NCBI RefSeq assembly: GCF_001625215.2
Contig: NC_030385.2
Location: 25,909,135 to 25,973,134, forward strand
From: Daucus carota subsp. sativus
Taxonomy: Eukaryota; Streptophyta; Magnoliopsida; Apiales; Apiaceae
Reading direction: 5' to 3'
Length of the DNA stretch: 64,000 nucleotides
The stretch's first letter is position 1, and each line of letters starts with the position of its first letter. This document shows, piece after piece, positions 1,121 to 40,590 of the stretch. The translations under genes were made by a program, and so were the position numbers. Below the pieces are notes generated by a model. That model saw only the letters and a program-made list of their open reading frames with translations, did not search any database and was not told where the DNA came from.

Positions 1121-1221
1121 ACATCGTTTATGTTGTACAGCCGTCGTTGTCTGAAGCTCCTACGATATTGACGGTGTGTATAATCTAATTTTGCAGCTTC
1201 TTTCGAATCCGTCCATAAGAA

Positions 1222-5356: not shown

Positions 5357-5512
5357 CTCACATGTTGGTATTTGAATTAATAATTTAGTAACATGAAACG
5401 AAAATTTCAATATCACTTGAAATATAACTCTTTTCTCACATGTTGGTATTTGAATTAATAATTTAGTAACATGAAACGAAAATTTCAATATCACTTGAAA
5501 TATAACTCTTTT
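5357..5512. repeat. 78-bp tandem duplication
   Basis: Two adjacent, apparently identical 78-bp units (5357-5434 and 5435-5512), each starting CTCACATGTTGG and ending AACTCTTTT. The lack of visible divergence points to a recent duplication upstream of SPOC copy B. Copy A has no equivalent. Confidence 0.8.
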
Positions 5513-5797
5513 CTGATATACACATTCTCATATTCTCGTATCTATGAATCTTATTCCGTCATTCTGATTCCCTATTCCAGTTTAACTCATGATCCAAAAC
5601 TCCTATTATTAATTTTAATTATAATTATCTAATCAAAATATTTTAGAACTTTACCATTTCAAACACACGAAGTAATAATTCACCCAAAATAAATTCGATA
5701 TTTTAATACATCATTTTTTTCTTTTTTAAACTAAGTTTACGTCCTGCTCCCGAATAGGAAAGCAAGTGATAAAAAAAGTAAAGTTATGTAATTTTCG

Positions 5798-5950
5798 TTA
5801 CTGTGTGCTCTCGAGTTTTTTAAAACAAAAAAAGCAAGTGAAAGTGTATGCAAATATAGCATACTTTCATTTTAAAAATTTCACATCAAAAATGGAATGA
5901 TTACTTTCACTTGCATTTTCTCCTAGAAAAACTCAGAGACCAGGGCATTA
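5798..5950. mobile_element. Small inverted-repeat element in the copy B promoter
   Basis: Left and right arms of about 50 bp are imperfect inverted repeats sharing GCAAGTGAAAGT and a GAGTTTTT-type motif around a short centre. Copy A has continuous sequence across the matching position (about 1060-1075), so this is an insertion specific to copy B. It stands about 170 bp upstream of the start codon. Family unknown; ends are approximate. Confidence 0.5.
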
Positions 5951-5983
5951 ATAAATCCAGTTTTTATATCTGTCGGTTCCCTG

Positions 5984-5995
5984 CATATAATAACC
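5984..5995 (+). promoter_or_regulatory. TATA-like box of SPOC copy B
   Basis: CATATAATAACC lies about 130 bp upstream of the ATG at 6121 and is at the same relative position as the box of copy A. Confidence 0.4.
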
Positions 5996-6120
5996 ACACA
6001 AATTTATGTTGTACAGTCGTTTTCTGATGCTCCTCCGATATTGATGGTGTGTATAAAATAATCACATGCCATTCTGCCAATTTAATTTTGCAGCTTCGTT
6101 CGAATCCAAGTCCATAAGTA

Positions 6121-9100: not shown

Positions 9101-12100
9101 GGGCAGTTATCTGTTGGAGGAGAAATGGTTCTTTCATCTTCCCACAACTCTCATATAAATATATACTTAGTCAAAGTACAAAATATGATTCAAGCAAATT
9201 GCTTCAAGTCTAGGACTGAAGAGTCTTGGTCGATGCCTAAACATATCTTCTGAAAGGATGCATAAAAAAAAAGCCCAAATTGTTGAAATTCAAGAAATAC
9301 ATTTGTGTTGGCAATCTGAGATTCTATATGCTCTATCTGGGCATATTTGAGCTTGCCAATGAGTGAATGGAAACAGATGAGATCCTTGAATGACTCCTCT
9401 TTTTCTTTTTGCATCTGTATGCTAATGGCTTACAAAGAAAAAACTGAATACAGAAGTGGAGGTCTCTCCAATCATTTCCATGTGTAGCAACTGCATCAGC
9501 ACGGATAAATTCTTGTTCTTTTGTTGTTTTTTCTGCCACCTTAATGTCAAGAAGTATCTGATTCTATGAGGGATCTATCTATTGACAGTTATCTTTCCAG
9601 ATATACTGGCTTTAGTTAGGTTTTCTATTCCAGCAAGTGTCCTTGGCCAATAAGAGTGAGTAGCAGGACGTTATCAGCTTTACATTGTCAATACGTCATG
9701 ATAACATCTAACAACATTCATCCCGGCATATTCTGAACCTATTATCAAAAAAACTGTCTTGATATCCACAACCTTTTAGATAAATTTTCATATCAAGTGT
9801 AACGAATGCCTGATAAATTTCCATATCAAGTGTAACAGCACCCTGAATGCCTGATAATCAACTTCCACCATATAAAGGTCATGAGATGCACAACAAGTAT
9901 TATATATTGTTCATGGTTATACTTCATTCAGCATTCCTTTTCAGAAGTTGTAGCGAGGCTTTTTGATAATCTGTTTTAAGCATGAACCGATGCAAAAAAA
10001 ATAAATATCAGTTTGGCTGTTACCTGAGAGCTATTAACTTTAGATTTACTTCGTATGTAGAACACAATTGAGTGGATTTGGATTAATTCCAAGGGATTGT
10101 CATATTATTTGGTTTGTGTTTGGAAGTGCTATCACAAGAGAGGATTATGGGTGTCATCATAGGTTAGAGTATCTGTTGGTGTTGGTCGCTTAAAGCTTTT
10201 TTTCTCTGCTCTTCTTATGTTATCTGGGTATCTCTGTGTGCATTCTGAACGATTCTATGATACTACCTACTTCTATGCTTGATCAGAGAAGATAGTAGTT
10301 ATATTTTGATATGTTTGACATCATTATAGAAGCTTTAACTGGATTTATCTTATATTAGGAAGTGCTACTTGTAAAAAAAACGAAAGTGTTTTAAGATTTT
10401 AAGCCATTAAGTATTTAAGCAATAAGATATATGAGCTAATACATTGAGAGAATAAGAGGTATATCTTTCTGTTTCTTATGTGCTTTCATTTAGTATAAAA
10501 CACTGGATGAGAATTACTCGCCAGCTAATGAAACGAAGCTGATCAGAGCTTTAAAATAGGCCGCTCTCTATTTTCTTTCCAATAAGCAAAGATCCCTCAT
10601 CGAATCTAACATCTACAAAAAATTTGTTACTGAACACTGTGAACTATGAAGCTCCAAATATGAAGAACTGGAATATTACCTCAAGGTTATACATCAATCT
10701 CCCTACTTACCCGTTATTGTCATTGTTACATATATAAAGTAGTATAACTTAAATTTGAGCCCATCAGCACAAAAAATTTGTGATTTAGTAGTTAAATTTG
10801 ATGAGAACCTTTGGGCAGCCAACAATAATTGCTCAATTAGCCACGGATATTAACAAGAAAGGCAGTTTTGCATAAATCAACAATTGATGCACATCATCAA
10901 CATCCCAAAAATGTTTACTACAAAGTAGATGAAGAAAGGAGCTTCCAAAATACTCATATTACTGAAAATATGAATGTTTTTTCAAGATGCGATACATACG
11001 GTCACAAGTGGTAAATGATGGTTATAGTATTACATGTTGTAAGTTGTAACAGCTGATTAAGCCAGTGAGCAATTTACTTGATCATCTGGATTCTGGTTCT
11101 ATGTGGCAAAGTAGAGCGTCTTGGCTGATGTTAGTCTCCTCGACTTCTGTTTGAACTACATCTCTGATGTGGGTGGTGTCTGTGATTAGTGATGAAACTT
11201 TACTTGAGTGGCCAGTGGTTTTGTAATATATTTGCAGTAAACTTGTAGCCCCATCAGGTTGTGTAATACAGAAATTACCTGGTACAATCTGTTTACCGAT
11301 CATGTGATTTCAGAGTAAACAATATCTTTGTCGAACATTGATGCTCTTTTTTTGTAGGCTTGTTGTAAACTAGGGGTGCTATGATAAATTTGTTTGATTA
11401 GGAACTCTGTTAATGAAAACCTTATCTTACTCTAGTCCTCAGAACCTCTAAAACAGGGGTTTGGTGTTGCCTTTCTGCCTATTTAAAAATTACCTTTTCA
11501 AGTTGTTTCCTGTTTTGGTGTTAGGAAACTGGGAAGGAGGTTAGTTTGTGTTCATACAGTGTCTTTGGGGCTGTTGTGTTGTGTGATCTAGTACCTGTTT
11601 ACTTTTTCTTTGTGAACTGCTTCTATGTACTTTGAATGTACTCGACTGCAAAACAAATTTCCTTCTTTTCGACAATACTTTTTATCTGGTGATGTGTTTA
11701 TACTTTATACCATATGGCTTCCGCATCTTGTTCGATAGTAGAGCTTAGCACGTATATGTTTTAGACGACCCTTTTAATTTTGAAGCTACTTATTGTATTA
11801 CTCATTACATGGTAATTCTGTGTGAGAATTTACTGTGACAAGTTGTTCATGTTCTTGGACAGCATTTTTGGAGTTTATGTTTTCTGAACTAAGAAATTCC
11901 CATATATCTGAATCTGGCTGTTCTCAGCAGAAGTGCTGATAGTATGACTTTTATCTAAATGGTATATCAAAGTTTAAATGTACCTGGTCTTTTAGAAATG
12001 ACTCATTGGGGTTTTTGAATCTTACAATAATAATATTTTATTTAATGTTGTTATTGTCACAGGAGAAATCTTCATCTTCATCAGTGGATACAAATTTAGA

Positions 12101-14723
12101 ACCTAGTGAAGTCTTATGGATTGGGTTTCCTGCGGTGCTGAAGGTGGATGAGACAATTCTAAGAAATGCCTTTTCACTATTTGGTGAAATTGTGAACATT
12201 ACTGCATTTCCTGGTCGCGGCTATGCCTTTGTCCGCTTCGGAAGTTTAAGGTCAGCTTGCAGGGCTAAAGATACTCTTCTTGGAAATTTATTTGGCGATC
12301 CTCGTGTGCACATTTGTTTTGCAAAGAGTGAGTATACTTCCAGGGGACGGAATCCTGTGGAAGCCCCTTCCTCCCCAGATATCAGGCCATTTTCACGCAT
12401 TGAAGCTTCTCATGAGAAGTTGCGACATAATAAAAGAAGCTATGAGAACATATCTAGAGTTCCCAAATTGGCGCCCCCTCGGTTTATTACTGATATGGAG
12501 TCCCAGGATCCTGATCTTGTGCTTTTCCAGAGGAAGGGTAATGAAAAGCCTATTATTGATGGTGCATCTGAACGAGGATTCCAAGATCTGGGTCCAGAGC
12601 TGCGACCTCCGAGGAGTGTTTATGAGCACCAAAGTAGTCCTCCAAGAGATAGAGGTGCCCACTTCCGTGATTATTCTCAACTAGATATTCCTAGACAAGG
12701 TCAGTTATATGATAATGCTTGGAACTTGCCAGAAGATCCAACGCTTTTTCATGAATCTAAGAAACCAAAGATCAGTTTTTTTCCACATGAAAATGAACTT
12801 CCCGAGTATTATTTTTGTGATCCTGAACGAGTAAAACGTGAGTTGCCTAAAATACCCGATTACCACCAGCTTGATGCCTACAACAAGAACTTCTGTTATG
12901 GATCTTTTGGGCATGAACAGATCCCTGATAGAGCGATAAATGAAAAGCAGCCATTTGGTGAGAGAAGTGAACACTGGAATAAACCAAGTAATGGTTTCCA
13001 GACTAGACCTGTTCCATTTCCTCCAAATCATGTCAAATGGAAGAGACCATCTGAAGAGTTGAATGAGCCTTCTCCAAATGAAGTTTGGGAATGGGAAGGA
13101 ACTATCGCAAAAAGAGGAACTCCAGTTTGTCGTGCTCGCTGTTCTCCGGTGGGAAAACTGCTGGATATTATACTGTAAGTTCTTAAATTTGTTGATCATT
13201 ACAAAATCTCCAGGAAATTGCCTCAGTTTGTCTTGGTAGATAGGAATCTTTCAGAAATACAAGCTTCATGTTTATTTCATCTGTTATCTGTTCACATTTG
13301 CTATCTCTTTTTGTTTTCTAATCCTACTAATTAATCTTGCTATGATCAATAGTTGTCATTCTCTCAATATATTAGACGTGACAATATATTATAATTAAAG
13401 CTAGTGATAGCTATATAGAAGCTATGGAAACAATATAATGAGCACAAAAGGCCTTTGGACGAAGCTCCAACCAACAAGGAAGATCTTTTTTTCTTTTGAA
13501 GTTGAAGTGTTGAACTGTGGAACTTGATTTCATAGATTTCTCCTTTGCCATCTACTTGTTTCTTTCAGCTACTCTAGTAACTCTTCTCTATCTGGAAAAA
13601 AAAAGATAACTAGCATGTTAAAATTGTTGCAAGGTGCATTTGTTGTTATTGTTACACTGCATGTTAGCATCTATTTGTGCATTGAAATTTATTCATGCTG
13701 CAGGCCTGACTTTCTGGATTGCACAACAAAGACCGATATAGACATCCTGGCAAAGCATTACTATGAATCTGTCAGTTCTTGGGTAGTAACTTTTTTTCCT
13801 TATAGCGACGCTGATATTGCATCTTACAATGAACTCATGAATTATTTGGGGAAAAAGCAGAAAGCTGCAGTTGCTAAAATTGACGAGAACACCACTTTAT
13901 TTCTTGTTCCTCCTTCAGAATTTTCTGACGAAGTACTAAAAGTTCCAGGGAAACTTGGTATCTCTGGTGTTATTTTAAGGTCTGAAAATCTTGGTCCCAG
14001 TATTCAGTCTCTTCATAATCCGATTGAGAGAAACGACACAAGTTACGGGTCTTCCTCTGTGGCTCCTTTTTCAGATCAGGGAAACCTTGGAGTACAGAAT
14101 GTACATTTCCTGGCAAAGTTTCCTACTCCCCAACCTGCATCTTTTGAAGGCCCTGATCATATTGCTAGAAGCCTAGAACTACACCTCCCACCATTAATGA
14201 TAACAGGCATATGTATCAGCATAACCCATCACAGGGTTCAAAATGGCTGGCAGGCAATCTGGAAACCCACAATGCTGGTGCTGGAAACCGAGCAACACAA
14301 CCATTCAGCGCTCCCTTCGATTCTGTCAGCCGAGAATACAACTCTGCAACAGTGCCATGTTATGCGGACTACCCACCAGGGTTTTCTGGGACCGCTTTTG
14401 CTGGAAGCACTAACCCTTCCCATGAAACACCACCATCTTCGTCTGCAACTCTCCGACCAGAACAACTTGCGCAGCTGGCAGCATCTCTTCTTGGGCAATT
14501 AAGGCAACCAGAGGTCCCGTCAGAAAGCCAAGATTCCAGCCCCTCGAGCCACACAAATCAGTCGGAGGTTTCAGCAATTACAGTGCAACAAGAAGTACAA
14601 CCATTCCAGCAGAATTCAGGTACACGTGAAGATGGAGACTCAAACTACCAGAAACGGCTGCAAGCAACACTAAAGCTGGCAGGAGATCTTCTTCACCAAC
14701 TTCGGCAAACGGAAGAAAAGTGA
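6121..14723 (+). CDS. RRM- and SPOC-domain RNA-binding protein (FPA / AT4G12640-like), frameshifted near 14173
   Basis: Proposed exons are 6121-6123, 7346-7660, 12063-13174 and 13704-14723; phases agree at every junction. Exon 1 is just the ATG followed by donor GTATGT. RRM1 is at about residues 34-105 (RNP2 LWVGSL, RNP1 RGYAFVNY) and RRM2 at about 122-193 (LWIGFP, RGYAFVRF). A charged linker follows, then SPOC at about 448-570, recognisable from WEGTIAKRGTPVCRARC, LAKHYY and TTLFLVPPSEF. SPOC proteins of this group act in the nucleus; FPA controls RNA 3'-end choice and flowering time, while this subgroup is little characterised. After about residue 633 the frame carrying the expected C-terminus (LRPEQLAQLAASLL and a final helix ending REEK-like at 14723) is offset by one base. 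A single missing C in AGCCTAGA near 14172-14174 would explain it. If real, the protein ends out of frame at 14502. Intron 2 is unusually long at 4.4 kb. Confidence 0.82.
8541..8682. repeat. 71-bp tandem repeat
   Basis: Two units with a 71-bp period, beginning ATGGTTGTAATGTGCATGTC at 8541 and again at 8612, differ by only a few substitutions. They lie within intron 2 of SPOC copy B. Confidence 0.75.
9190..9539 (-). pseudogene. Possible relic of an unidentified gene (antisense in intron)
   Basis: Two overlapping minus-strand frames look more protein-like than their surroundings: one with ADAVATHGNDWRDLH, then, after a CAG at about 9417, one with KDLICFHSLIGKLKYAQIEH. A frame change or splice would join them, but no convincing donor is seen. 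I do not recognise the protein. It could be a fragment carried in by a mobile element, or chance. Confidence 0.25.
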
Positions 14724-15067
14724 AGTCATGGTGATACTTACTTTTTGCATCATTGCATGCAGCTACAATCGTTCGTTAATTGGTGACTAAAGAAAAAGAT
14801 AATTACATGTTGCTTTGGATATCTTGTTTTAAACTTTAAAGAGGTTGCGTTTCTAAATTACTGTTGGAAGATCGTGTATATATGGGTTTTCCTGGAAAAC
14901 GATTTCCCTTTTAGAGTTATTGACACCAAAAAAGTGTGCCTGGCTGTCATGGGCGTATTTTTCTCAAGTTTATATAATTTTTATTTGAACGTATTTTAAT
15001 TATTTATGTTAGTAAGTTATGTTTTGAGACGGTGTTTTCGTCGTTAAAAAATAATCACTTAAGATCC
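14724..15067. other. 3' flank of SPOC copy B
   Basis: The first about 190 bp matches the 3' flank of copy A (3558-3740) and probably contains the 3' UTR. The rest is AT-rich without recognisable features. Confidence 0.5.
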
Positions 15068-16817: not shown

Positions 16818-16827
16818 CTATATAACC
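16818..16827 (+). promoter_or_regulatory. TATA box of pseudokinase gene 1
   Basis: CTATATAACC, followed by CACCAAGAAATCT, lies about 170 bp upstream of the ATG at 16994. The CACCAAGAAATCT stretch also stands next to the TATA-like box of gene 3. The leader then has the pyrimidine-rich CATCACCCATCT-type motifs shared by all three genes. Confidence 0.55.
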
Positions 16828-16993
16828 ACCAAGAAATCTGTTGAATAATCACCCATCTATTTTATTCTATTCATACATAATCTACACCTCTGATTCTTGA
16901 TGCTTCATCTTCTTCATCATCAACTCAGTCATCACCCATCTCTACTACTCGCTGAATCTTGATCATTCCCATTTTACATTCTTGCTTTTCATA

Positions 16994-19900
16994 ATGTCTC
17001 AGTTGATCAATCTTGTTATCAAAAATGGCTTAACAAGATACAAGGTTTTGAGAGTCATTGGGAAATGGGGTCCTGCATTCACTCTCCCACTCTATGAAGC
17101 TGCCGTTCTTTCCCCTCAAGACAACAAGACCCCCGTCTCATTGGTGGCCTTCAAGATTATCAGCAAACTCCAAGAAGGCTACTACAACATGGCTCTGCAA
17201 GACATCGAAACCTCCCAATTCTACTCTCGTAATCCCGATATTTTGCCATACATGTCATCTTTTGAGGCCAGGGTAAAAGGGGTTAAGCTTCTCTGCATTG
17301 TCTTGCCTTATGATAATTTTGTCACGTCTCTAAGGTCTTTACAAATTTGGGATGCAAGATTCTCTCGAGGCCTGCAAGAGAGCATGATTGCTTTAATTCT
17401 CCGAAGAACCTTGACTGGCCTTGACGCGATTCACCAGAGTCAGAGGCGCCACACCAGGATCACAGCAGACACTGTGTTTTATGATATTGATGATCCTACT
17501 TTCTATCTGTCTTATGCAGCTTCTCTTTATCAGCGGACTGGTCCTGTGAATCGCGGTGATTGGAATAGTCTCCCGGTGGACAGAATGCTGGCATGGGCTT
17601 TAGCCCCTGAAGTTAAGCATGATGAGTCATTGGAGTTTGTGGATTTTTACGCGGCTGAAGAATCTGATATTTGGCTTATTGGAATCTTGGCTTTGGAGTT
17701 GGCTTATGGAAGGATTCTTGTGGAGAATCGGAGAGAATTGCTTGACATTGTTAATTACATTTGTAGTGATCCTGAAGTTTTGACGGATACTTGGGAGGAA
17801 CTGAGGATTAAATCTGGAGAGTTTGCTCGAGGGGCTGATCCATTAGAACTAGCAATTGTCTTGCCTGTGGAAAAGACAAGATTTAGTAAGCGTTTTGGTA
17901 AATTTCTGGCCCGGTGTCTTGCTGCTGAACCGCAGAATAGGCTATCTGCAGAAGAGCTTGTTATGGATCATGAGTTCTTGAGGGTAAATGTAGGGAAAAT
18001 GAAGACATTCAGTGGTATGTTTGGAGAGCCAAATCATCGACAAGACCGGTTTCTTCATCAAGATGTTGGAAAGAAACAAAAAACATCATCTAAACAGAGA
18101 AATCATCTAACCTTTCGTCACAATGGCATCACTTACACAATTTTGGAACCTATTGGCAAATGGGGGTTCGAAAACAACCTGATTGTTTATGAAGCTGTCG
18201 CTGCCTCTGGAATTAAGGATTCGTGTCCTCAACATGTGGCCTTAAAAATGACCAGGGACATTGAAGTGTATTTCAACCTAGCCGCGGACAGCCTGAGGAG
18301 AAGTACTTCAGTCAATGATTTTCATATTTTACCCTTAAACACATACTTCCTGAAACACATAGAACGATATGAAACACTTTGTATGGTACTGCCATTTGAT
18401 GCTCAAGTGGTGTCTCTCCGCTCAATCATACAAAGCCGCCCAAAATTTGCTGGTGGAATTCCCCAAATCTGTATTGCTGTTTCTCTACTGCACGCTTTAA
18501 GGGGGCTCCAGGTGATCCACTCTAAGAGTCAAGATCACTGTGAAATTACAGCGGGTAACATCTTCTATCATATTGAAGACAAGTCTATCAAGCTTGCATA
18601 TGCAGCCTCATGTTATGAAAGGACTTATGCTGCTGAAGAATCTGGTGAATTTTCAATGAACAAGTTGCTGTCATGGGGAGTACCGCCAGAGATTGTCAGA
18701 GAATTGGACTTGATCTATGAATACGACGTATTTGCAGCTGATATCTGGTTTATTGGAATTGCGGCTTTGGAATTGGCTTATGGGAAAATCCAAGTGGCGA
18801 ATAGCAATGAATTGTTTAGAATTGCTAGCTACATAAGCTCTGTGAGAGAGCTGCCTAATACATGGGAGGAACTTAGGACTGAAGCTGCTGAAGCGGATAT
18901 TTTGAGAGAGATCCTCAAGTTGCCCACAGCTTCGGATAACCCACAGAGATTTGATAAATCTTTTGGTAACTTTGTAGCAATGTGTCTGGAGGAAGTCGAT
19001 GAAAGGGCATCTGTAAATGAGCTATTAATGGACGGTTTTCTGAGGCACGTTCATGAAGGAGAAAGTATAGAGATCTTTAAGGCCGTGATGATCAAGGGAT
19101 ATAAACATTTAGACAAAAAGAACGTAGGTGAATTTCTTGATGGAGATAACCAAATGAAACAGGCAACATCATCTGAACAGAGTGATCATCTTTCGTTTTG
19201 TCACAATGGCCTGACTTACACGATTCTTGAACCTATTGGGACATGGGGGCTAGGGGCATTTGGACCCTCAACCACTCTACCTGTTTATGAAGCAGTCACT
19301 ACCTCTGGATCAAATGATCCCTCGCCTCAGCACGTAGCCTTCATAATGGCCTGCAGCCTTCGTGAGCGTTTATTCGATCTAGCATCATACAGCATCAAGA
19401 AAAGTATTCCATGCAGTCATATCAATATTTTACCCTTTAACACACACTTCTTTATACAGTTAAAAGGCCACAAAACACTTTGCATAGTACTGCCATTTGA
19501 TGCTCAAGTGTTGTCGCTCCGCTCAATCATACAGAACCGCCCAAAATTTGCTAATGGGATTCCCCAAACCTGTATAGCTGTTGCTCTACTGCACACTGTA
19601 AGGGGACTCCACGTGCTCCACACGAAGGATGAACCTCACTACGAAGTCAATGCAGGTAGCATCTTCTATCATATTGAAGATAAGTCCATCAAACTTGCCT
19701 TTGCAGCATCCTCTTATGAGCGGACTTGTGCTGCTGAAGAATCCAATGAGTGTCCAATTAATGAGTTGTTTGTATGGGCACAACCGCCAGAGGTTGATGG
19801 CTTACTAAGAGCCTATTTACTTCATGAATTCAACAATTTTAAAGCGGATATCTGGTTTGTTGGAATTGCGGCTCTGGAATTGGCTTATGGGAAAATCCGA

Positions 19901-20218
19901 GTGGTGAATCGTGAAGAAATGTATAGAATTGCTAGCTACATAAGCAAAGTGAGAAGGTTGCCTAATACATGGGAGGAACTTAGGACTCAAACTCAACAGG
20001 ACAGAAAAAACCACAAGTTTCCCACAGCTGCTGAGGAGCCACAAAGATTTAATGAATATTTTGGTGATTTTGTAGGATGGTGTCTGGATACAGAACCGGA
20101 TGAGAGGCCATTTGCAAATGAGCTATTGATGCATGATTTTCTGAGGAACGTTCATGAAGGAGAAAGTATGGAAATCTTCAAGGCTGTGATGATCAAGGGC
20201 TGTACAGATTTGGACTAG
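16994..20218 (+). CDS. Triple-domain pseudokinase (Ste20/BLUS1-like fold)
   Basis: One uninterrupted frame of 1,074 codons from ATG 16994. It contains three kinase-like domains at about residues 15-345, 378-700 and 738-1066. Family marks are a YKVLRVIGKWG-type glycine-loop remnant, a VAxK strand, APEV or PPEI/PPEV in the activation segment, and SDIWLIGILALELAYG / ADIWFIGIAALELAYG, which matches the ADIWSFGITALELAHG motif of plant Ste20-type kinases. Catalysis looks lost: the HRD position reads HTR, HCE and HYE, and the DFG position is a YAA or FAA sequence in all three. The VAxK lysine survives in domains 1 and 2 (VAFK, VALK) but is Ile in domain 3 (VAFIMA). Domain 2 keeps the loop Asn (AGNIF). 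No signal peptide or membrane segment is seen. A scaffold or ATP-independent regulator is likely; the role is unknown. Domain 3 is very close to domain 2 of the next gene. Confidence 0.88.
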   Translation: MSQLINLVIKNGLTRYKVLRVIGKWGPAFTLPLYEAAVLSPQDNKTPVSLVAFKIISKLQEGYYNMALQDIETSQFYSRNPDILPYMSSFEARVKGVKLLCIVLPYDNFVTSLRSLQIWDARFSRGLQESMIALILRRTLTGLDAIHQSQRRHTRITADTVFYDIDDPTFYLSYAASLYQRTGPVNRGDWNSLPVDRMLAWALAPEVKHDESLEFVDFYAAEESDIWLIGILALELAYGRILVENRRELLDIVNYICSDPEVLTDTWEELRIKSGEFARGADPLELAIVLPVEKTRFSKRFGKFLARCLAAEPQNRLSAEELVMDHEFLRVNVGKMKTFSGMFGEPNHRQDRFLHQDVGKKQKTSSKQRNHLTFRHNGITYTILEPIGKWGFENNLIVYEAVAASGIKDSCPQHVALKMTRDIEVYFNLAADSLRRSTSVNDFHILPLNTYFLKHIERYETLCMVLPFDAQVVSLRSIIQSRPKFAGGIPQICIAVSLLHALRGLQVIHSKSQDHCEITAGNIFYHIEDKSIKLAYAASCYERTYAAEESGEFSMNKLLSWGVPPEIVRELDLIYEYDVFAADIWFIGIAALELAYGKIQVANSNELFRIASYISSVRELPNTWEELRTEAAEADILREILKLPTASDNPQRFDKSFGNFVAMCLEEVDERASVNELLMDGFLRHVHEGESIEIFKAVMIKGYKHLDKKNVGEFLDGDNQMKQATSSEQSDHLSFCHNGLTYTILEPIGTWGLGAFGPSTTLPVYEAVTTSGSNDPSPQHVAFIMACSLRERLFDLASYSIKKSIPCSHINILPFNTHFFIQLKGHKTLCIVLPFDAQVLSLRSIIQNRPKFANGIPQTCIAVALLHTVRGLHVLHTKDEPHYEVNAGSIFYHIEDKSIKLAFAASSYERTCAAEESNECPINELFVWAQPPEVDGLLRAYLLHEFNNFKADIWFVGIAALELAYGKIRVVNREEMYRIASYISKVRRLPNTWEELRTQTQQDRKNHKFPTAAEEPQRFNEYFGDFVGWCLDTEPDERPFANELLMHDFLRNVHEGESMEIFKAVMIKGCTDLD

Positions 20219-21180
20219 AAGAACCCTGTAGAAGAGATTTTTCAATTTAATGTTTTCTTGAGACAGGACTTCATTTACTGGTTTGTATTATAAAGAGTTC
20301 GATAATAACATTTGTTTTTGTAGTAGTTCAAGTATAGCAACAGTTCTCTTTCTCCCTTTTCCCTGGACAAAATCTATGCATTTTTCTAAGGTTTGTTAGA
20401 AGAAAGTGAATTTCCAATTTTTTGTCAATGTGAACTACTGTTTAAAGTACCGGAAATATCAAAAGTCTAGACATCAGACATCCAATATGCTCATATATTC
20501 TCTGTATGCCTATTCTTTAAGGTTTCATTAGATGCCAAACTCCGATGCAGGAACCAATGTGCAGGAATTTGTTTACAGGAAATACATTCCCAGCAAAGTT
20601 GCAGATACAATCAATGCCACCCTTTGCAGAAATAGTCAAATTTCATTTCATTGTCTCACAGTGATCACTGGATTTTTTTTAATGCTCATGCATTGAGGCA
20701 GATAACTAGGGTCTAAGGGCCTGTTTGCATGGGCTTAAAGCCCCGATTTAAGTTATTTTTTGATTTTAAACTATGTTTGTGAATAAGTCTCGGCTTAAAG
20801 TTGACTTAAATTTTTTTGATAAAATTACCCATAAGTTATAAATTTTCCGTAAATCATTTTTATTTTTATTATTATATTTTTAATAACTCGTAAATAAGTC
20901 ACATTAAGTCACAAATCAAGTTAAGTCATAAGTCATAAACTCGGCCATACGGGTAACTTAAATTTCATGTATAAAATTTTAATTTAAATACACCGATTTA
21001 GTAAAAATTAATAAATGTAATGGTTTTGACTATCAATTTCACAATAATTATATATAAAATATACAAGTATATATTTTAAATATCTATATTCATTACCAAC
21101 ATTCAGAATTTAAATTCTAAAAAAAAAATTACCATCACAGTTTTGTCACAAAATTTTAGAACAGAGAAGCGCCCAGAAAT
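20219..21180. other. Intergenic region after pseudokinase gene 1
   Basis: 20219-20360 resembles the 3' flanks of the other two pseudokinase genes (TATAAAGAGTT, CATTTGTTTTTG). 20440-20640 resembles 27600-27800, downstream of gene 3, so the duplicated block extends beyond the coding region. A MITE-like stretch follows at 20716. Confidence 0.55.
20716..20961. mobile_element. MITE-like sequence (GGGCCTGTTTG type)
   Basis: It begins GGGCCTGTTTGCATGGGCTT and ends near GGCCATACGGGT, with many internal AAGTCA/TAAGTT motifs. Such ends and interiors are typical of small plant DNA elements. No clear target duplication was found, so limits are approximate. Related sequence occurs at 29720-30160. Confidence 0.4.
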
Positions 21181-21190
21181 CTATTTAAAC
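21181..21190 (+). promoter_or_regulatory. TATA-like box of pseudokinase gene 2
   Basis: CTATTTAAAC preceded by AGAAAT, identical to the box in front of gene 3 (24762-24771). It is about 280 bp upstream of the ATG, and the leader contains the repeated CATCACCCATCTCT motif. Confidence 0.5.
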
Positions 21191-21464
21191 AGCTCTCCCA
21201 ACTTCAAACTTGCTCACAGATCATCACCCATCTCTCTATACATAATACACACACAGTCTATACAATCTATACATGAAGATATAATGTTGCATAGTCTGAT
21301 TCTTGATACATCATCTTCATCATCATAACAACTCATCATCACCCATCTCTACGTCCATAAACCATAATCTTGATCATTCCCTTTTACGTTCTTGCTTTCT
21401 TGTTATTCATCAATCTTGCTTCATTCCATCTTCACGTTCTTGATTTTCATACTCAAACACTTTG

Positions 21465-23627
21465 ATGTCTCAGTTGATCAATCTTGTCGTCAAAGATGAC
21501 TCGACAAGATACAAGCTCTTGAGAGTCATTGGGAAATGGGGTCCTGCATTCACTCTCCCACTCTATGAAGCTGCCATTCTTTCCCCTCAAGACAACAAGA
21601 CTCACCTCTCATTAGTAGCCTTCAAGCTCATCAGCACCGGTCAAGTGGACTATTTCAACTTGGCCTTTCAAGATGTTAAGGCCTCTCAAGTCTTTCAATA
21701 TAATTCTATCATCTTGCCTTTCATGAGGTATTTTCAGGCCAATGTAAAAGGGGGTACACTTCTCTGTATTGTCTTGCCTTATGATACCATTGTCACTTCT
21801 CTTCGATCTTTACTATTGTCGAATCCAAGATTCTCTGAAGGCCTCGAGGAGAAGATGATTGCATTGGTTCTTGAAAGAGCCTTGATTGCCCTTGATGCAA
21901 TTCACAAAGCTGGCAAATGTCATGCAAGAATCACAGCAGATACTGTCTTTTATGATCTTGGAGAGCCCACTTTCTATCTTGCTTATGCAGCTTCTTTATA
22001 TGAGCGGACTAGTCTGAAGAATGTTGATGTTTGGAATTGTCTCCCTGTGAACAAAATGCTGGCATGGGGTTTAGCCCCTGAAGTTAAACATGATGAATCA
22101 CTGGAGTTTGTGGATGTATACGAGACGGATAAATCTGATATTTGGCTTATTGGAATCTTGGCTTTGGAATTAGCTTATGGGAGGATTCTAGTGGAGGATC
22201 GGAGAGAACTGCTTGACATTGCTAATTACATAAGTAGCCACCCAAAAGTTTTGACAGATACTTGGGAGGAACTTAGGATTAAATCTGGAGAGTTTGCTTC
22301 TGGGGGTGATCCAGGAAAACTGCCAATCGTCTTGACAGTGAAGCAGACAAGATTTAGTGACCGTTTTGGCGGCTTTGTGGCCAGGTGTCTTGATGCTGAT
22401 CCAGAGAACAGGGCATCTGCAGCAGAGCTACTTAATGTGCATGACTTCTTGAGGGAAAATGTAGAGAACATGACGACATTCAGAGATATGGTGACTGCAG
22501 GAGCAAAGCCTCACGATGCACTCTCATCTGAACAGAGTGATCATCTTTCGTTTTGTCACAATGGCCTCACTTACACAATTCTTGAACCTATTGGGACATG
22601 GGGGCTAGGGGCATTTGGGCGCTCAACCACTCTACCTGTTTATAAAGCAGTCACTACCTCTGGATCAAATGATCCCTCGCCTCAGCACGTAGCCTTCATA
22701 ATGGCCAGCAGCCTTCGTGCTCCTTTATTTGATCTAGCATCATACAGCATCAAGAAAAATATATTTTGCAGTCATATCAATATTTTACCCTCTAACACAC
22801 ACTTCTTTATACAGTTAAAAGGCCACGAAACACTTTGCATAGTACTGCCATTTGATGCTCAAGTGTTGTCTCTCCGCTCAATCTTACAGAACCGCCCAAA
22901 ATTTGCTAATGGGATTCCCCAAACCTGTATAGCTGTTGCTCTACTGCACACTGTAAGGGGGCTCCACATGCTCCACACCAAGGATTATGATCACTTAGAA
23001 ATCACTGCAGGTACCATCTTCTATCATATTGAAGATAAATCCATCAAACTTGCATTTGGAGCTTCCTGTTATGAGCGGACTAGTGCTGCTGAAGAATCTG
23101 GTGAGTGTCCAATCCAAGAAGTGTTTTATTGGGCAACCCCGCCAGAGGTTGATGTCTTATCACGAGCCAGAAAACTTCATGAATACGACAGATTTAAAGC
23201 TGATATCTGGTTTATTGGAATTGCGGCTCTGGAATTGGCTTATAGGAAAATTCCAGTGGTGAAGCGGGAAGAATTGCTCAGAATAGCTAGCTACATAAGC
23301 CAAGTGAGAAGGTTGCCTGATACATGGGAGGAACTTAGGACTAAAGCTGATGAATTAGAGGTTGTGAAAACTCAAAGGAATAGAAAATTCCTTAAGTGTC
23401 CCACAGCTCCTGAGAACCCACCAAGATTTGATGAACATTTTGGTAATTTTGTAGCAATGTGCCTGGATGCAGAACCGAATGAGAGGCCACTTGCAAATGA
23501 ACTACTGATGGATGAATTTCTGAGGAACGTTAACGAAGGAGAAAGTATGGAAATGTTCAAGGCTGTGATGATCAACGGATATAGAAATTTTGACAAAAAG
23601 AAAACTGTAGCTATCGGTTCTGCATAG
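21465..23627 (+). CDS. Double-domain pseudokinase (Ste20/BLUS1-like fold)
   Basis: Intronless gene of 720 codons from ATG 21465; the start MSQLINLV is shared with gene 1. It has two kinase-like domains, at about residues 15-345 and 368-700. Domain 1 keeps the VAFK lysine and APEV; the HRD position is HAR and the DFG position lies in LAYAAS. Domain 2 has lost the lysine (VAFIMA), reads HLE for HRD and has T where the loop Asn should be (AGTIF). SDIWLIGILALELAYG and ADIWFIGIAALELAY mark the alpha-F helices, and a TWEELR motif follows each. The C-terminal tail ESMEMFKAVMI recurs in all three genes. Domain 2 is nearly identical in DNA to gene 1 domain 3, which suggests recent exchange. Function unknown; a catalytically dead regulator is inferred. 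Confidence 0.88.
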   Translation: MSQLINLVVKDDSTRYKLLRVIGKWGPAFTLPLYEAAILSPQDNKTHLSLVAFKLISTGQVDYFNLAFQDVKASQVFQYNSIILPFMRYFQANVKGGTLLCIVLPYDTIVTSLRSLLLSNPRFSEGLEEKMIALVLERALIALDAIHKAGKCHARITADTVFYDLGEPTFYLAYAASLYERTSLKNVDVWNCLPVNKMLAWGLAPEVKHDESLEFVDVYETDKSDIWLIGILALELAYGRILVEDRRELLDIANYISSHPKVLTDTWEELRIKSGEFASGGDPGKLPIVLTVKQTRFSDRFGGFVARCLDADPENRASAAELLNVHDFLRENVENMTTFRDMVTAGAKPHDALSSEQSDHLSFCHNGLTYTILEPIGTWGLGAFGRSTTLPVYKAVTTSGSNDPSPQHVAFIMASSLRAPLFDLASYSIKKNIFCSHINILPSNTHFFIQLKGHETLCIVLPFDAQVLSLRSILQNRPKFANGIPQTCIAVALLHTVRGLHMLHTKDYDHLEITAGTIFYHIEDKSIKLAFGASCYERTSAAEESGECPIQEVFYWATPPEVDVLSRARKLHEYDRFKADIWFIGIAALELAYRKIPVVKREELLRIASYISQVRRLPDTWEELRTKADELEVVKTQRNRKFLKCPTAPENPPRFDEHFGNFVAMCLDAEPNERPLANELLMDEFLRNVNEGESMEMFKAVMINGYRNFDKKKTVAIGSA

Positions 23628-24027
23628 CTAGCTGTGAAGAGATTTATCATTTTTTTTGAATGTTTTCAAGACATTGACTTCATTTACTAGGTTGGCATTA
23701 TAAGGAGTTTGATGATGACATTTGTTTTTGCAGTAATTCCAATATAGCAACAGTTCTCTTTCCCTTTCCATTGAATTTTTCATTGATACAATGTCTGATT
23801 TCACTTGGATGCTATCTACTTTGTTCAGAGTTTGTTTTGGTGATTGAGTCTTCTTCCTATATACTAGCAGAAGTATAATATATCACCTGGCCATGACCTA
23901 TTGGGAAAAAAAAATGTATTCATTCCCATTTTGGTAGATAAGAACTAGTTAGAATGCTCCACAGCTCTTAACAGAAAAATTTAAATTTCTCACAGACACG
24001 TTTACTAATGGATGAAATTGTTGGAAT
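23628..24027. other. 3' flank of pseudokinase gene 2
   Basis: The first about 140 bp is homologous to the 3' flanks of genes 1 and 3. The rest shows no gene. Confidence 0.5.
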
Positions 24028-24330
24028 GCCTCAAAATATTTTCGGGGCTATCATCCAGTCGTTTCTCATCTTCATCATTTACCTGAGAGAATTTCTGGAG
24101 ACGGAATGGAGGATAAAAGAAATTAATATGGGAAATACAGAAAACGACGAGTGATTGAGGGCCTTGTAAGCTAGATAACTTTTATGGGAAGCCTCTGCTT
24201 TAGCCTTCAAGTAATTACGGAATCTTGCTAAATCTAAAGAACGTTCATTCCATAGCTGACCCTTGAGCCGAGTCTAGCTAAAACTAAAGACCACTCATGC
24301 CAAAACCGAACCTTGAGACATCTATAACTC
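24028..24330 (-). pseudogene. Relic of the NifU-like gene (last two exons)
   Basis: This stretch is a degraded copy of 27987-28250. The plus-strand text GGGCTATCATCCAGTCGTTTC matches the last exon of the intact gene, and GAGTGATTGAGGGC... with AAAGAACGTTCAT matches the preceding exon and intron. In-frame stops and small insertions destroy the reading frame, and part of exon 3 seems repeated. It lies between pseudokinase genes 2 and 3, as the intact gene lies after gene 3, so gene and neighbour were duplicated as one block. Confidence 0.7.
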
Positions 24331-24761
24331 GAAACAAGAGTTCATGGGATGAAGCCAGTCATTCAGATAACAGTGACTATGTGCATCACAACACTAACAA
24401 AATAACTTTACAGAATTATACAATAAACTCCAGTCCTTTAAATACACATTTTCCACTGACAGTCTTGAAATTGTTCTTACCATCTGTAAAAATGTCAAAA
24501 TACGCTATCGCAGATAGGGAGAAAAAGTCAGGGACAGATCCAGTAGGGTTCGGGCGCTTAAACACCCCCTACCCAAAAAAAAAGAAAGTAAAATTAAAAT
24601 TGTATATATAAACATCCCATAAAAAAATTTAGTAGTGTTTTATAATATGTATGACTTTATATTTGATATCAGGAAGGGAACTATAAAAAAAATGAATTGA
24701 AAATTTATCCTAACAAATTATGCCAAGGCAAACTGAATATAACCCTGAACCACCAAGAAAT

Positions 24762-24771
24762 CTATTTAAAC
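24762..24771 (+). promoter_or_regulatory. TATA-like box of pseudokinase gene 3
   Basis: CTATTTAAAC within CACCAAGAAATCTATTTAAA, about 230 bp upstream of the ATG at 24993. It shares the core with gene 2 and the upstream flank with gene 1. Confidence 0.5.
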
Positions 24772-24992
24772 CACTCTACCCATCTTCAACTTGCTCTGTA
24801 ATCACCCATCTACACACTTATATACACATGTTGTAAACTCTGATTCTTGATACTTCATCTTCATCATTATCAACTCACTGATCACCCATCTGACATACCT
24901 GCATAAACTTGTATCCACTGCTTCTTGCATCGTTTCGTTTTCGAGTACATTCTTGCTTTCTTGATCTTCACAAATCTTGATCAAGCACTTCC

Positions 24993-27155
24993 ATGGATGA
25001 GTTGATCAATATTGTTGTCACAGACAGCGAAAGACAAGCAAGTTACAAGATTCTGAGAGTCATTGGAAGATGGGGTCCTGCATTCACTCTCCCAGTCTAT
25101 GAAGCTGCCGTTCTTTCCCCCAAAGACAACAATACTTACATTTTCTTTGTTGCCTTAAAGATTATCAGCAGTACTCAAGAGGAATACTTCAACATGGCCA
25201 TTCAAGATGTCGAAGCCTCTCAAGTCTTGGCCTCTCAAATAAATTCCAACATTCTGCCAGTCCTTGAATCTTTTAAGGCCAATGTGGAAGATGTTCCACA
25301 TTTCTGCATTGTCTTGCCTTATGATACTACTGTCATGTCTCTTCGGCCTCTGCTGTTGTCGAATCCAAGATTTTCTGGAGGTATGGATGAGAAGATGATT
25401 GCATTAGTGCTCGTACGAGTCTTGGCTGGCCTCGATGCAATTCACCAATCTGGCAAACATCACAAAAGGATCACGGCTGATTCTGTCTTCTATAATTTTA
25501 ATGCACCAAATTTCTATCTTGCTTATGCAGCTTCTCTATATGAGCGGACTACTCATCCGAATCTTGGTAATCCAAATTTCCGCCCTATAGACAAAATGCT
25601 GGCCTGGGGTTTAGCCCCTGAAGTTAAACAAGATGAATCATTGGATTTTGTGGATGTTTACAACACGGAGAAATCTGATGTTTGGCTTATTGGAATCTTG
25701 GCTTTGGAATTAGCCTATGGGAGGATTCTAGTAAAGGATCGCAGAGAATTGCTTGACATTGCTAGTTTCATAAGGAGACGTGGAATTTTGACGGATACTT
25801 GGGAGGAGTTGAGGACTAAATGTGCAGAGTCTGATCCGGGTGCTGATCCAGTGAAACCACCAAATGTCTTGTCAGTGAAGCAGACAAGATTTAGTGAACG
25901 TTTCGGTGGCTTTTTGGCCTGGTGTTTTGATCCTGATCCAGAGAGTAGGGCATCTGCAGAAGAGCTGCTTCATGGGCATGACTTCTTGTGGGAAAATGTA
26001 GGGACCATGAAGACATTTAATGATATGTTGACAGTAATGGATCCTCACGTAGACCGCTTTCTTGATCGAGTTCCAAAGAAAAAACAGAGTGATCATCTTT
26101 CGATTCGTGAAAAGGGCATCACTTACACAATTATGGAACCTATTGGGACATGGGGGCAAGATTACTGTCATATAGTTTATGAAGCAGTCACCACCACTGG
26201 ATTTAATGATACCTCTCCTCGATCCGTGGCCTTCACAATGGTCAAGAACAATGAAGGTGAGGTTTATGAGAAGGCCGAAAAGAGTCTGGAGAAAAGTACT
26301 TCAGTCAATCATATCAATATTCTACCCTTAATCGCACACTTCCTTAAACAATTGAAATATGAAACAATTTGTATGGTACTGCCATTTGATGCTCAAGTGT
26401 TGTCTCTCCGCTCAATCATTCAAAGCCGCCCAAAATATGCTGATGGGATTCCTCAAAACTGTATCGCGGCTTCTCTACTGCACGTTTTAAGGGCGCTCCA
26501 TGTGATCCACTCTAAGGGTGAAGATCACTCTGAAATTACAGCAGCTAACATCTTCTATCATATTGAAGATAAGTCCATCAAACTTGCCTATGCAGCCTCA
26601 TGTTTTGACCGGACTTATGCTCCTGAAGAATCTGGTGAATTTGGAATAAACAAGTTGCTGTCATGGGGAGCACCACCAGAGCTTGATATGGTGAAAGAAT
26701 CGCCCTTAAAACGTAAATACGACGCATTTGCAGCTGATATATGGTTTATTGGAATTGCAGCTCTGGAATTGGCTTATGGGAAAATCAAAGTGGCAAGTCG
26801 CAATGAATTGCTTAGAATTGCTAGCTACATAAGCAATGTGGGAATTCTGCCTAATACATGGGAGGAACTTAGGACTGAAGTTTTTGAAGCGGAGATTTTG
26901 AAATATCACCCGACAAGAAAGTTCCTCAAGTTTCCCACAGATTTTAAGAACCCGCCAAGGTTTGATGAATATTTTGGTCATTTTGTAGCAGTGTGTCTGG
27001 ATACGAATCCCAAGGAGAGGCAATTAGCAGATGAGCTTTTGACTGGTGGTTTTTTGGGGCACATTAATGAAGAAGAAAGTATGGAAATCTTCAGGGCCAC
27101 GATGATCTTGGGATATAAAGATTTAAATAAAAAGAAAGCTATAGTTACCGGTTGA
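24993..27155 (+). CDS. Double-domain pseudokinase (Ste20/BLUS1-like fold)
   Basis: Intronless, 720 codons, with ATG at 24993 (MDELINIVV). Two kinase-like domains lie at about residues 17-350 and 372-705. Domain 1 keeps VALK and APEV, but the HRD position is HKR and the DFG position falls in LAYAAS. Domain 2 has Thr instead of the lysine (VAFTMV) and HSE for HRD, yet keeps the loop Asn (AANIF). SDVWLIGILALELAYG and ADIWFIGIAALELAYG are intact, and TWEELR follows each. It is the most diverged of the three genes, with an extra charged stretch around DRVPKKKQSD between domains. It converges on the minus-strand NifU-like gene, about 830 bp apart. The role is unknown; loss of both catalytic aspartates in both domains argues against phosphotransfer. 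Confidence 0.88.
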   Translation: MDELINIVVTDSERQASYKILRVIGRWGPAFTLPVYEAAVLSPKDNNTYIFFVALKIISSTQEEYFNMAIQDVEASQVLASQINSNILPVLESFKANVEDVPHFCIVLPYDTTVMSLRPLLLSNPRFSGGMDEKMIALVLVRVLAGLDAIHQSGKHHKRITADSVFYNFNAPNFYLAYAASLYERTTHPNLGNPNFRPIDKMLAWGLAPEVKQDESLDFVDVYNTEKSDVWLIGILALELAYGRILVKDRRELLDIASFIRRRGILTDTWEELRTKCAESDPGADPVKPPNVLSVKQTRFSERFGGFLAWCFDPDPESRASAEELLHGHDFLWENVGTMKTFNDMLTVMDPHVDRFLDRVPKKKQSDHLSIREKGITYTIMEPIGTWGQDYCHIVYEAVTTTGFNDTSPRSVAFTMVKNNEGEVYEKAEKSLEKSTSVNHINILPLIAHFLKQLKYETICMVLPFDAQVLSLRSIIQSRPKYADGIPQNCIAASLLHVLRALHVIHSKGEDHSEITAANIFYHIEDKSIKLAYAASCFDRTYAPEESGEFGINKLLSWGAPPELDMVKESPLKRKYDAFAADIWFIGIAALELAYGKIKVASRNELLRIASYISNVGILPNTWEELRTEVFEAEILKYHPTRKFLKFPTDFKNPPRFDEYFGHFVAVCLDTNPKERQLADELLTGGFLGHINEEESMEIFRATMILGYKDLNKKKAIVTG

Positions 27156-31834: not shown

Positions 31835-33102
31835 GTAGATTTTGGTGCAAAAAGTAGTTGCTAACGGATAGCATTGTCTTCAGAAATATTGCAGGTGTAG
31901 AGGCCTACAGGGATCGGGTATCTGAGCTTAAGCCCACTCCTAAGGCCCAAATGCTCATCAGTCATTTCGTAGAGTAGGCAATATATTGAGCATAGATGCC
32001 TGCAGCTGAGTTTTTAATCTTTTGAGTGAGTTTATACGGTTTTAAACCATTTTCGATTTTAAATTTATTATTGTGAAAGTTGGTTTAGAATTAAAAATAA
32101 AATTTTAAAAATAAGTCAGAAATCATCTTCTTTTATTTTTATAATTTTTCCACTAAAATCAATTTCAACATTAAAATAAATAAATTATCAAATTCATTTT
32201 TGTTATTTCTTCATAAATATAAAATTAATCAAATAGACAATTTAAATTCAGCACTTTCAGATTAAGTCACTATAAGAGTATAAGTCATAATTCATAATTT
32301 TAAACGTGATTTTCGCTCTTTTTCTGACAAGAACATGATTAGCCTGCTCTTTCAAAATTTGTTAATCCGCCTGTGAGCCACAAAATGGATAAAGAAACAC
32401 CATAAAGACATACAAGGGCTGTTTTGGTGAGTTCAAAATAAGTGTTTTTTGTTTAACATAAAAAAGTGAAGTAGAAGTAGCAGGTCAAAACTTATAAATG
32501 ATTAAGAAAATAAGTAGAAGTGCTGAAACAAAAGTTAGGAATCCTAACTTCTTTTAAGTATTTCTTTTTATATAAACGGTACAAATAAGTATTTCTAACT
32601 TATAAATATAAAAATCGGACTTATAATCGATTGCGAAACACCACCGTAGTCCGAGTCCTCACGAGATTTGGAGCTATGATTAAAGAGATTTTCATAATAG
32701 TGGAATTAATTTTAACACAAAAGGAACTTGTTATTGTCACTAAGAAACAAACAAGAGAAGAAAAAATGATCAAAGGAGGATGCATGTAAGTTTGTTGTAG
32801 ACATATAATTGCTGGAGGCGGCCTAGAAGCATAATCTTTCCTTCTTTGAAAGATGCATGTATAGATAAGATGTACAGAGACTTAAATGAACAGATACAAA
32901 AAGACTAGACCAGATCTGCATGCATGAAAAAGAGTGGAGGAATCAAAGCTATTAATGTCACACAACACAAGTAACAAATACAATTCAGATCATTCAATTT
33001 TCTCAACCACCTCTTCTTTTTACTTATAAGTAGCTAGCAGCCAACACTGATAGTGCCACCATCACCTCCTTCATTTCACTAATAATAGCTACTGCTAGTA
33101 GC
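31835..33102. other. Upstream region of the CASP-like gene
   Basis: AT-rich. A probable MITE occupies about 32408-32653 (starts GGGCTGTTTTGGTGAG, ends near GCGAAACACCACCG). The last 120 bp before the ATG at 33103 form the likely leader, with TTATAAGTAG at about 33024 as a possible TATA element. No gene is seen. Confidence 0.45.
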
Positions 33103-33957
33103 ATGGCGGACAAGAAAAGTAGCAACGGTGGTGGAGATTCAGCAGCTGGGATGGGGATGGAACCATCAAGGGAAGAGGGAAGCAAGAATATTGGAGAGAC
33201 TTTGTTGCGGTTGCTGCCTATAGCTCTCTGTCTCTCCGCGCTTGTTATAATGCTCAAAAACTCCCAGTCCAATGATTTTGGTTCCCTCTCGTACTCTGAT
33301 CTTGGTGCTTTCAGGTCCTTGATCTTTACCTTCTCATTTATCACTTATTTCTCTAATCCTAACAGGAGACTTTTTCTACCTAATATTGAGTGTTTAAGGG
33401 ATAAAATCTTATACTAAGGACTTAAATCCCTTTACTAAATTTGTATATACAGGTATTTGGTGCACGCGAATGGTGTTTGTGCAGGTTATTCCCTCCTCTC
33501 AGCAATTGTCTCAGCTGTTCCTCGTCCATTAACCATGCCAAGAGCCTGGACCTTTTTCGTTCTTGACCAGGTTCGCTAATTACATCTCACATATCTTATT
33601 TTTACCACAAAATCTCACTGTGATGCATTCTAATTAGTCTCACCATACACAACTTCTAATCATATCACATATATAATATAGGTATTTACATACATAATAC
33701 TGGGAGCTGGGGCAGTATCCACGGAGGTCATGTACCTTGCATACGAGGGAAATGCAGCAATAACATGGAGTTCAGCATGTGGATCATTTGGGTTATTCTG
33801 TCACAAAGCCACATCAGCTCTGGCCCTAACTTTCGGAGTAGTTATATGCTATGCCGTGCTTTCCCTCATCTCTTCTTACAAGCTCTTTAGCAAGTATGAT
33901 GCCCCAGTAAACACCAGTAGTAAAGGAATCGAGATAACACCTGCATTCTATGCCTGA
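33103..33957 (+). CDS. CASP-like membrane protein, subfamily 2 type
   Basis: Three exons, 33103-33314, 33453-33570 and 33682-33957, with consistent phases and GT/AG borders, giving 201 residues. There are four predicted membrane helices: around residues 31-50 ([18 protein letters not shown]), 70-92, 108-130 ([16 protein letters not shown]) and 160-185 ([20 protein letters not shown]). The conserved family Arg in the first helix and Asp before the third (VLDQ) are present, and the [20 protein letters not shown] loop is typical of CASPL2 proteins. CASP proteins form plasma-membrane scaffolds that guide lignin deposition; the CASP-like relatives are less well known. Termini probably face the cytosol. 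The short N-terminal Ser/Gly-rich tail is family-like. The subfamily number is a judgement from memory of the family. Confidence 0.88.
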
Positions 33958-39774: not shown

Positions 39775-40590
39775 AAACAAAAGGCTTTCATTACTTCTTC
39801 AAATCATCCAAAATAATCTCCACCAAATGAGTAGGAGGAGATGTAAACACAATAAAGCAATTTAACATACAGGGAACTCTTGCCAAACAATGAGCTACCC
39901 TATTAGCTTGCTTACGAACATGACATAAACGAATACTTGGAGAATCTTGAAGCATGAGTCTGCACTGCTCCTGGATATAACCAACTTCTAGCAAATTCAC
40001 CGTGCCTTCCATCAGTGCTCGACATACTAGCAGGGAATCAGATTCAAGAGTAACCCTCTGAATTGATTGTTCCATAATCCATGATAAAGCCTCCCTTACA
40101 CCAATACATTCAGCCTCCATTACAGTTGCTGGCCGGGGTAACGAAATACACTTACCTCCTACAAATGCTCCTTCCTGATCACGAAGTACCATGCCTACAG
40201 AAAAAGATTCATGTCCCGGGAAAAATGATGCATCAACATTAAGTTTCAGCTCCCCTGGTTCTGGAGGTTGCCATCTTCTCAATTTGCTGGCTCCCTTAAC
40301 GTTCACAGCTCTCCTGTCCACACTTGTTTTACGAGCAGACTTCCACTCATTATACACTTTAAACGTGTTCTCCATAGCAATTGTAGGGTTCATCCATTGG
40401 TTCTGCCAGACCTTTTTGTTTCTCCAAAACCAAATACCCCAAAGCACCAGGCAGATAGAGACAATCTCTTCATGTTTAGCAGTGGCCAATTTCTGAAGTA
40501 ACCAATCTGGAGCTGAATACACCTCCCTCATGTTATACTTGAGATCAACAGATTGCCAACAACTCTCCGCAAATCTACAGTCGATTTGTA
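39739..40590 (-). mobile_element. 5'-truncated LINE, RNase H end with poly(A)
   Basis: On the minus strand an open frame ends at 39791 (TAA), followed after 17 nt by 35 A (plus-strand T at 39739-39773), as in an inserted LINE transcript. The frame starts within a zinc-finger/reverse-transcriptase tail (FAESCWQSVDLKYN). It then has an RNase H-type domain (LKLNVDASFFPG, GMVLRDQEGAF, ESDSLLVCRAL, VRKQANRVAHCLA). The reverse transcriptase itself is missing, so the copy is truncated at about 40590. No clear target duplication was found. Confidence 0.82.

Follow-up and report, generated by a model that had tools for sequence, protein, structure and literature searches.

What do genes encode when kinase-like domains that have lost their catalytic residues are joined in series within single proteins? 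The question is raised by a 64,000-nucleotide stretch of the carrot genome (Daucus carota subsp. sativus, contig NC_030385.2, positions 25,909,135 to 25,973,134; G000:C5:25909135-25973134 in our searches), hereafter the window, in which three neighboring plus-strand frames without stops (16994-20218, 21465-23627, and 24993-27155 of the window) encode proteins with seven kinase-like domains, split 3+2+2. None of the seven retains the catalytic aspartates. Our preferred reading, held at about even confidence, is that these are working genes for pseudokinases derived from MAP4K/Ste20-type kinases, with two domain types, A and B, joined head to tail, whose products act as binding or scaffold proteins and not as enzymes.

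The stop-to-stop open reading frames (ORFs) measure 1105, 727, and 724 amino acids (16901-20218, 21444-23627, and 24981-27155), and the products counted from the first ATG have 1074, 720, and 720. The genes are called intronless here on the basis of their unbroken frames. Each protein begins with a domain A followed by a domain B, and gene 1 carries an additional, second B. Protein identity is 60 to 68% in A-A pairs, 59 to 81% in B-B pairs, and 33 to 40% between A and B. The genes and domains, with motif states read from the alignment, are as follows:

16994..20218, plus strand: gene 1, 1074 amino acids, three pseudokinase domains (A-B-B); open frame; Pkinase match of 1.3e-24 in 3 stretches
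17003..18040, plus strand: gene 1 domain A; VAFK kept, HRD changed to HTR, DFG to YAA
18107..19135, plus strand: gene 1 first domain B; VALK kept, HRD changed to HCE, DFG to YAA; a patch looks converted with gene 3
19190..20215, plus strand: gene 1 second domain B (the third domain); VAIK lysine lost, HRD changed to HYE, DFG to FAA
21465..23627, plus strand: gene 2, 720 amino acids, A-B; open frame; Pkinase match
21474..22508, plus strand: gene 2 domain A; VAFK kept, HRD changed to HAR, DFG to YAA; modeled with AlphaFold2
22545..23600, plus strand: gene 2 domain B; VAIK lysine lost, HRD changed to HLE, DFG to FGA; 3' end copied in dispersed repeats
24993..27155, plus strand: gene 3, 720 amino acids, A-B; open frame; Pkinase match
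25002..26045, plus strand: gene 3 domain A; VALK kept, HRD changed to HKR, DFG to YAA
26094..27128, plus strand: gene 3 domain B; VAIK lysine lost, HRD changed to HSE, DFG to YAA

The proteins have a kinase fold, in domain A according to a structural model and in domain B according to the sequence profile. The Pfam Pkinase profile matches all three proteins above its cut-off, in 3, 2, and 2 stretches, which confirms the original prediction of three adjacent genes with two or three consecutive kinase-like domains. The AlphaFold2 model of gene 2 domain A (predicted local distance difference test score [pLDDT], 84.5; predicted template modeling score, 0.87) shows the protein kinase fold, and profile and structure comparisons together bear out a Ste20-type fold and rule out an unrelated one. 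The Ste20-related adaptor STRAD and the active kinase MST3 match the model equally well, and the nearest structure therefore says nothing decisive on function.

In the alignment, the HRD aspartate is present in 0 of 7 domains, with R or E in its place, and the DFG aspartate likewise in 0 of 7, with Y or F in its place, so the pair of aspartates expected of an active protein kinase is missing throughout. The H of HRD, APE or PPE, [AS]D[IV]W..GI.ALELAY, and TWEELR are kept in all seven; apart from the H, the original prediction had noted both the loss and the retention. Across 12 aligned family domains, the common structural residues are the H of HRD, the PE of APE, DxW..G, and AxEL, together with C and R of the last helices. 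The lysine of the VAIK-type motif, which the original prediction left unmentioned, is kept in four of the seven domains (every domain A plus the first B of gene 1) and lost in three; the GxGxxG glycine loop is missing from five, and a GLGAFG string lies within an insertion of two B domains. The four kept lysines would suit an unusual catalytic or nucleotide-binding activity independent of the HRD and DFG aspartates, and ATP binding persists in known pseudokinases such as STRAD, but the combined loss of both aspartates, most glycine loops, and three of the lysines makes such an activity very improbable.

The window genes are not isolated. The genome, 441,086,747 bases in 11 contigs, was searched with gene 2, and matches were found on contigs C1 to C9; the numbers of relatives given here are lower bounds. 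The 25 match rows comprise four from the window genes; five open, single-domain, intronless relatives of 319 to 572 amino acids (L013, L017, L021, L026, and L030, of which L026 occupies a second row as L031); two pairs of broken copies on opposite strands, L014/L015 (C9:30.27M) and L016/L020 (C1:24.76M); an L026-type copy with a broken frame (L025, on C8); and ten rows that are pieces of five dispersed repeats. A second search with the L030 protein returned 16 rows: itself, two new stop-containing relatives (C7 and C5), eight rows of known members, and five open-frame matches, the four inspected among these being kinases of other groups with both aspartates kept. Elsewhere in the genome there are therefore several broken copies and no fewer than five single-domain relatives. 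The five open relatives likewise lack both aspartates, and four of them match Pkinase above the cut-off, the L026 protein scoring 27.1 versus a cut-off of 31.7. The copies in the two broken pairs are of the L013 type, with about 40 to 54% protein identity to L013. L021 (1093-2808, minus strand), a neighbor of L013, is a single-domain pseudokinase whose C-terminal tail consists of GSNVAGPST-like units in repeated form.

The dispersed repeats (L018 and L019 on C5, L022 on C3, L023 on C8, and L024 on C2) are about 1 to 2.5 kb in size and 90 to 99% alike over shared stretches. They carry a 0.4-kb 3' piece of a gene-2-like copy, whose source is window positions 23212-23650, and are probably a transposable element that captured a gene fragment.

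The captured fragment provides a natural control for the open frames of the cluster. At 13.4 to 15.8% divergence from gene 2, the fragments contain 3 to 5 stops in 132 to 135 codons of the gene 2 frame, and no insertion or deletion in them has a length divisible by three. By comparison, the second B of gene 1 has no stop in 119 codons and a single gap of 24 bases at a divergence from gene 2 of 13.9%. When random substitutions were introduced into the three frames (0.1, 0.2, and 0.23 per site), the mean number of stops per gene was 6.7 to 21.0, and 0 of 300 simulated frames stayed open, except for gene 3 at 0.1 (1 of 300). Together with the fragment control, these runs rule out open frames by chance: the 2514 codons of genes 1 to 3 are free of stops although the copies differ by synonymous divergences (dS) of 0.15 to 0.47.

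The ratio of nonsynonymous to synonymous divergence (dN/dS) is 0.43, 0.49, and 0.55 in the three A-A pairs, with bootstrap upper limits of 0.57 to 0.76, and 0.57 to 0.75 in the five bootstrapped B-B pairs. Purifying selection is thus clear for domain A and weaker for B. Of seven segments, the one from the catalytic loop to the "DFG" position is lowest in dN/dS for either domain type (0.22 and 0.18), and a pooled ratio as low occurred in 4 of 5000 sets of randomly drawn columns and in 5 of 345 contiguous windows, which is suggestive of an altered pseudo-active site that matters in its altered form.

Where did these domains come from? Green-lineage MAP4Ks are marked by the signature GTPyWMAPEv, reported in 94% of 249 sequences, and 64% of their clade III carry the motif S(G/A)WNF, according to a published survey (PMC8415026). 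A pattern search of the carrot genome yielded four MAP4K-like loci, examined as 3-kb stretches. Three of them showed HRD, two had SAWNF, and in two DFG was accompanied by GTPCW on the following exon; every locus has MAPEV on another exon, separate from the GTPCW exon in two and seen alone in the other two. On two of these loci, joined from exon pieces, the pseudokinase profile reaches 95.8 and 74.1 bits, versus 16.8 to 55.5 on five other kinases. In an unrooted tree of 19 rows, whose long branches make placement unsure, above all for L026, all 12 pseudokinase domains fall in a single group (100/100), and the five other kinases stand apart from pseudokinases and MAP4Ks (98/95). The BLUS1-type relationship proposed originally thus holds in part: the family is Ste20-type, and the nearest active genes sampled are clade-III-like MAP4Ks, whereas no BLUS1 orthologue was identified and a specific BLUS1 origin is not shown. 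A retrocopy of a spliced MAP4K is possible as the distant origin of the family, because the MAP4Ks of this genome are split into exons.

Within the same tree, L013 joins domain A (89/97), which suggests that A and B parted before or near the branching of L013; a tree without the active kinases has one firm inner branch of nine and does not resolve L013. Synonymous divergence between A and B is 1.57 to 2.13. The A-B protein thus looks as though two old paralogues had been fused, or else L013 may have lost its B. Tandem duplication of one domain within one gene is not favored, given the place of L013 and the A-B divergence.

The third domain of gene 1 appears to be a later addition. It shares 87% DNA identity with gene 2 domain B, and the identity of gene 1 to gene 2 climbs from about 0.53 to 0.9 near 19105 and drops past about 20360, beyond which the flank is 0.70 to 0.79 identical to that of gene 3 versus 0.32 to 0.43 to that of gene 2. 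Since the rise is limited to about 19105-20360, the second B, its linker, and 3' flank most likely arrived by copying from a gene-2-like sequence. Part of the first B of gene 1 in turn resembles gene 3 B (0.83 to 0.90), and the cluster copies seem to exchange sequence.

Clustered copies that exchange sequence, relatives and broken copies elsewhere, and raised dN/dS fit birth-and-death evolution, which is common in plant defense genes. The cluster could accordingly encode immune baits, fast-evolving MAP4K-type copies attacked by effectors and guarded by an immune receptor, in line with what has been proposed for the pseudokinase portion of plant tandem kinase proteins (TKPs), for which decoy roles have been suggested (PMC6170490). 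Against such baits stand the low dN/dS of the pseudo-active site, the lack of a linked effector, receptor partner, or resistance locus, and the lack of any resistance-gene domain match in the 8 of 26 listed window ORFs scanned beside the cluster; we regard the idea as tentative and rather unlikely.

Under our preferred reading of working binding proteins, A and B domains would have been joined head to tail and a second B added in gene 1. The proteins would transfer no phosphate and serve instead as rigid binding modules, the fixed, noncanonical pseudo-active site and the C-lobe contacting other proteins. By analogy with STRAD, which acts with LKB1 and MO25, the partners would most likely be Ste20/MAP4K-type kinases or the partners of such kinases. 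Two or three domains in series could hold several partners at once or bind one more tightly, and such a protein would therefore serve as a scaffold or a competitive regulator of a kinase cascade.

Several observations weigh against this reading, and some of them would suit dispensable relics on the way to becoming pseudogenes, still open through recent origin or weak constraint. Constraint on domain B is weak: two of the five bootstrapped B-B intervals reach 1, with upper limits of 1.04 (gene 3 B paired with the first B of gene 1) and 1.27 (second B of gene 1 with gene 2 B), and the sixth pair, gene 3 B and the second B of gene 1, lies outside the bootstrapped set and has a dN/dS of 0.80. In the piece of the second B of gene 1 compared with gene 2, changes at codon positions 1, 2, and 3 number 23, 11, and 16, with no third-position excess, so the selection argument there rests on the kept frame and not on codon pattern. 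Several relatives elsewhere are broken. The segment from the catalytic loop to "DFG" was chosen after its values had been seen, and the domain pairs overlap and are not independent; its low ratio is partly due to a high proportion of synonymous differences (0.40 versus 0.29), and on nonsynonymous differences alone 30 of 345 contiguous windows are equally low. The model of the whole gene 2 protein is unusable (pLDDT, 37.2) and gives no domain packing. GTPyWMAPEv is present in 0 of 12 family domains and S(G/A)WNF in 0 of 8 family proteins, so that a docking mode shared with MAP4Ks is only a guess. STRAD carries a C-terminal WEF motif for MO25; this motif was found in 0 of 8 family proteins. Relics are nevertheless improbable in view of the stop-free codons at appreciable synonymous divergence, the stops in the captured fragment at equal divergence, and the A-A ratios clearly below 1. 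Of the predicted selection for a noncatalytic role, kept frames and constraint on domain A therefore stand, with less certainty for B; the same division applies to the outcomes named beforehand as adverse, dN/dS near 1 or an unrelated fold, which do not speak against the finding for A and leave B less clear.

Both plant immunity and kinase regulation depend centrally on pseudokinases and tandem kinases. If our reading of binding proteins is true, a MAP4K-type kinase can be turned into a protein that only binds and can be multiplied in that form, the decayed copies of the genome serving as a control, and the cluster offers a clear protein set for asking what a pseudo-active site does. A bolder and doubtful extension would make it a lineage-specific plant signaling class of serial Ste20-derived pseudokinases, sensing or rewiring MAP4K signaling, or pathogen attack on it, through the conserved, reshaped pseudo-active site: a second, independent invention of a tandem (pseudo)kinase sensor outside the receptor-kinase lineage.

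The upstream regions of the three genes are partly alignable, with TATA-like boxes 176 to 284 bases 5' of the ATG (by eye and alignment); a sigma-70 promoter scan was discarded as having no meaning for plant DNA. Upstream of the cluster, 691-3731 and 4156-14908 share stretches 82 to 91% alike around RRM_1 matches (7295 and 11943), which looks like a duplicated RNA-binding gene, and 5357-5514 holds a perfect direct repeat, its two 80-base matches being shifted by 78 bases. The Pfam-matched neighbors are ordinary and are listed here after the TATA-like boxes:

16818..16827, plus strand: putative TATA-like CTATATAACC upstream of gene 1, by eye
21181..21190, plus strand: putative TATA-like CTATTTAAAC upstream of gene 2, by eye; aligned with the gene 3 box
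24762..24771, plus strand: putative TATA-like CTATTTAAAC upstream of gene 3, by eye; aligned with the gene 2 box
33034-33417: Casparian strip membrane protein domain (Pfam)
39791-40591: reverse-transcriptase-like (RVT_3) piece (Pfam)
43853-45454: IF-2 N-terminal region, 25.0 bits, slightly below the 25.3 cut-off (Pfam)
53820-54215: ERO1 (Pfam)
61673-62257: SWIM zinc finger (Pfam)

How does the cluster compare with known systems? With plant MAP4K clade III, which includes BLUS1, it shares the Ste20-type fold and the ADIW..GI.ALELA core; it differs in lacking the catalytic aspartates, both MAP4K motifs, and the long C-terminal half, and in having two or three serial domains in unbroken frames where MAP4Ks have split exons. 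Arabidopsis MAP4K9, compared by description only, is likewise a motif-degenerate MAP4K: its HRD, DFG, glycine loop, and signature motif are all severely altered, and the description consulted (PMC8415026) does not present it as serial. STRAD is an animal protein with a single pseudokinase domain. TKPs such as WTK1/Yr15, RPG1, Pm24, and Sr62 are similar in layout, with two kinase-fold domains per chain by duplication or fusion, most including a pseudokinase, and the cluster proteins share this serial build. The original prediction knew of no plant class of serial Ste20-like pseudokinases; a class in which kinase domains stand in series and one is a pseudokinase is in fact described (PMC6170490), whereas our literature search, covering titles, the openings of abstracts, and some passages, met no plant protein described as serial Ste20 pseudokinases, a listing in the full TKP survey (Nat Genet 2025, 57:254) being possible. 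In a set of 92 TKPs, 175 of 184 domains are receptor-kinase-like and one domain per protein is putatively active, and the other families named in the accessible text do not include Ste20 (PMC6170490). Compared with TKPs, the new part of the carrot cluster would thus be that every domain is predicted to be dead and is Ste20-like, not receptor-kinase-like.

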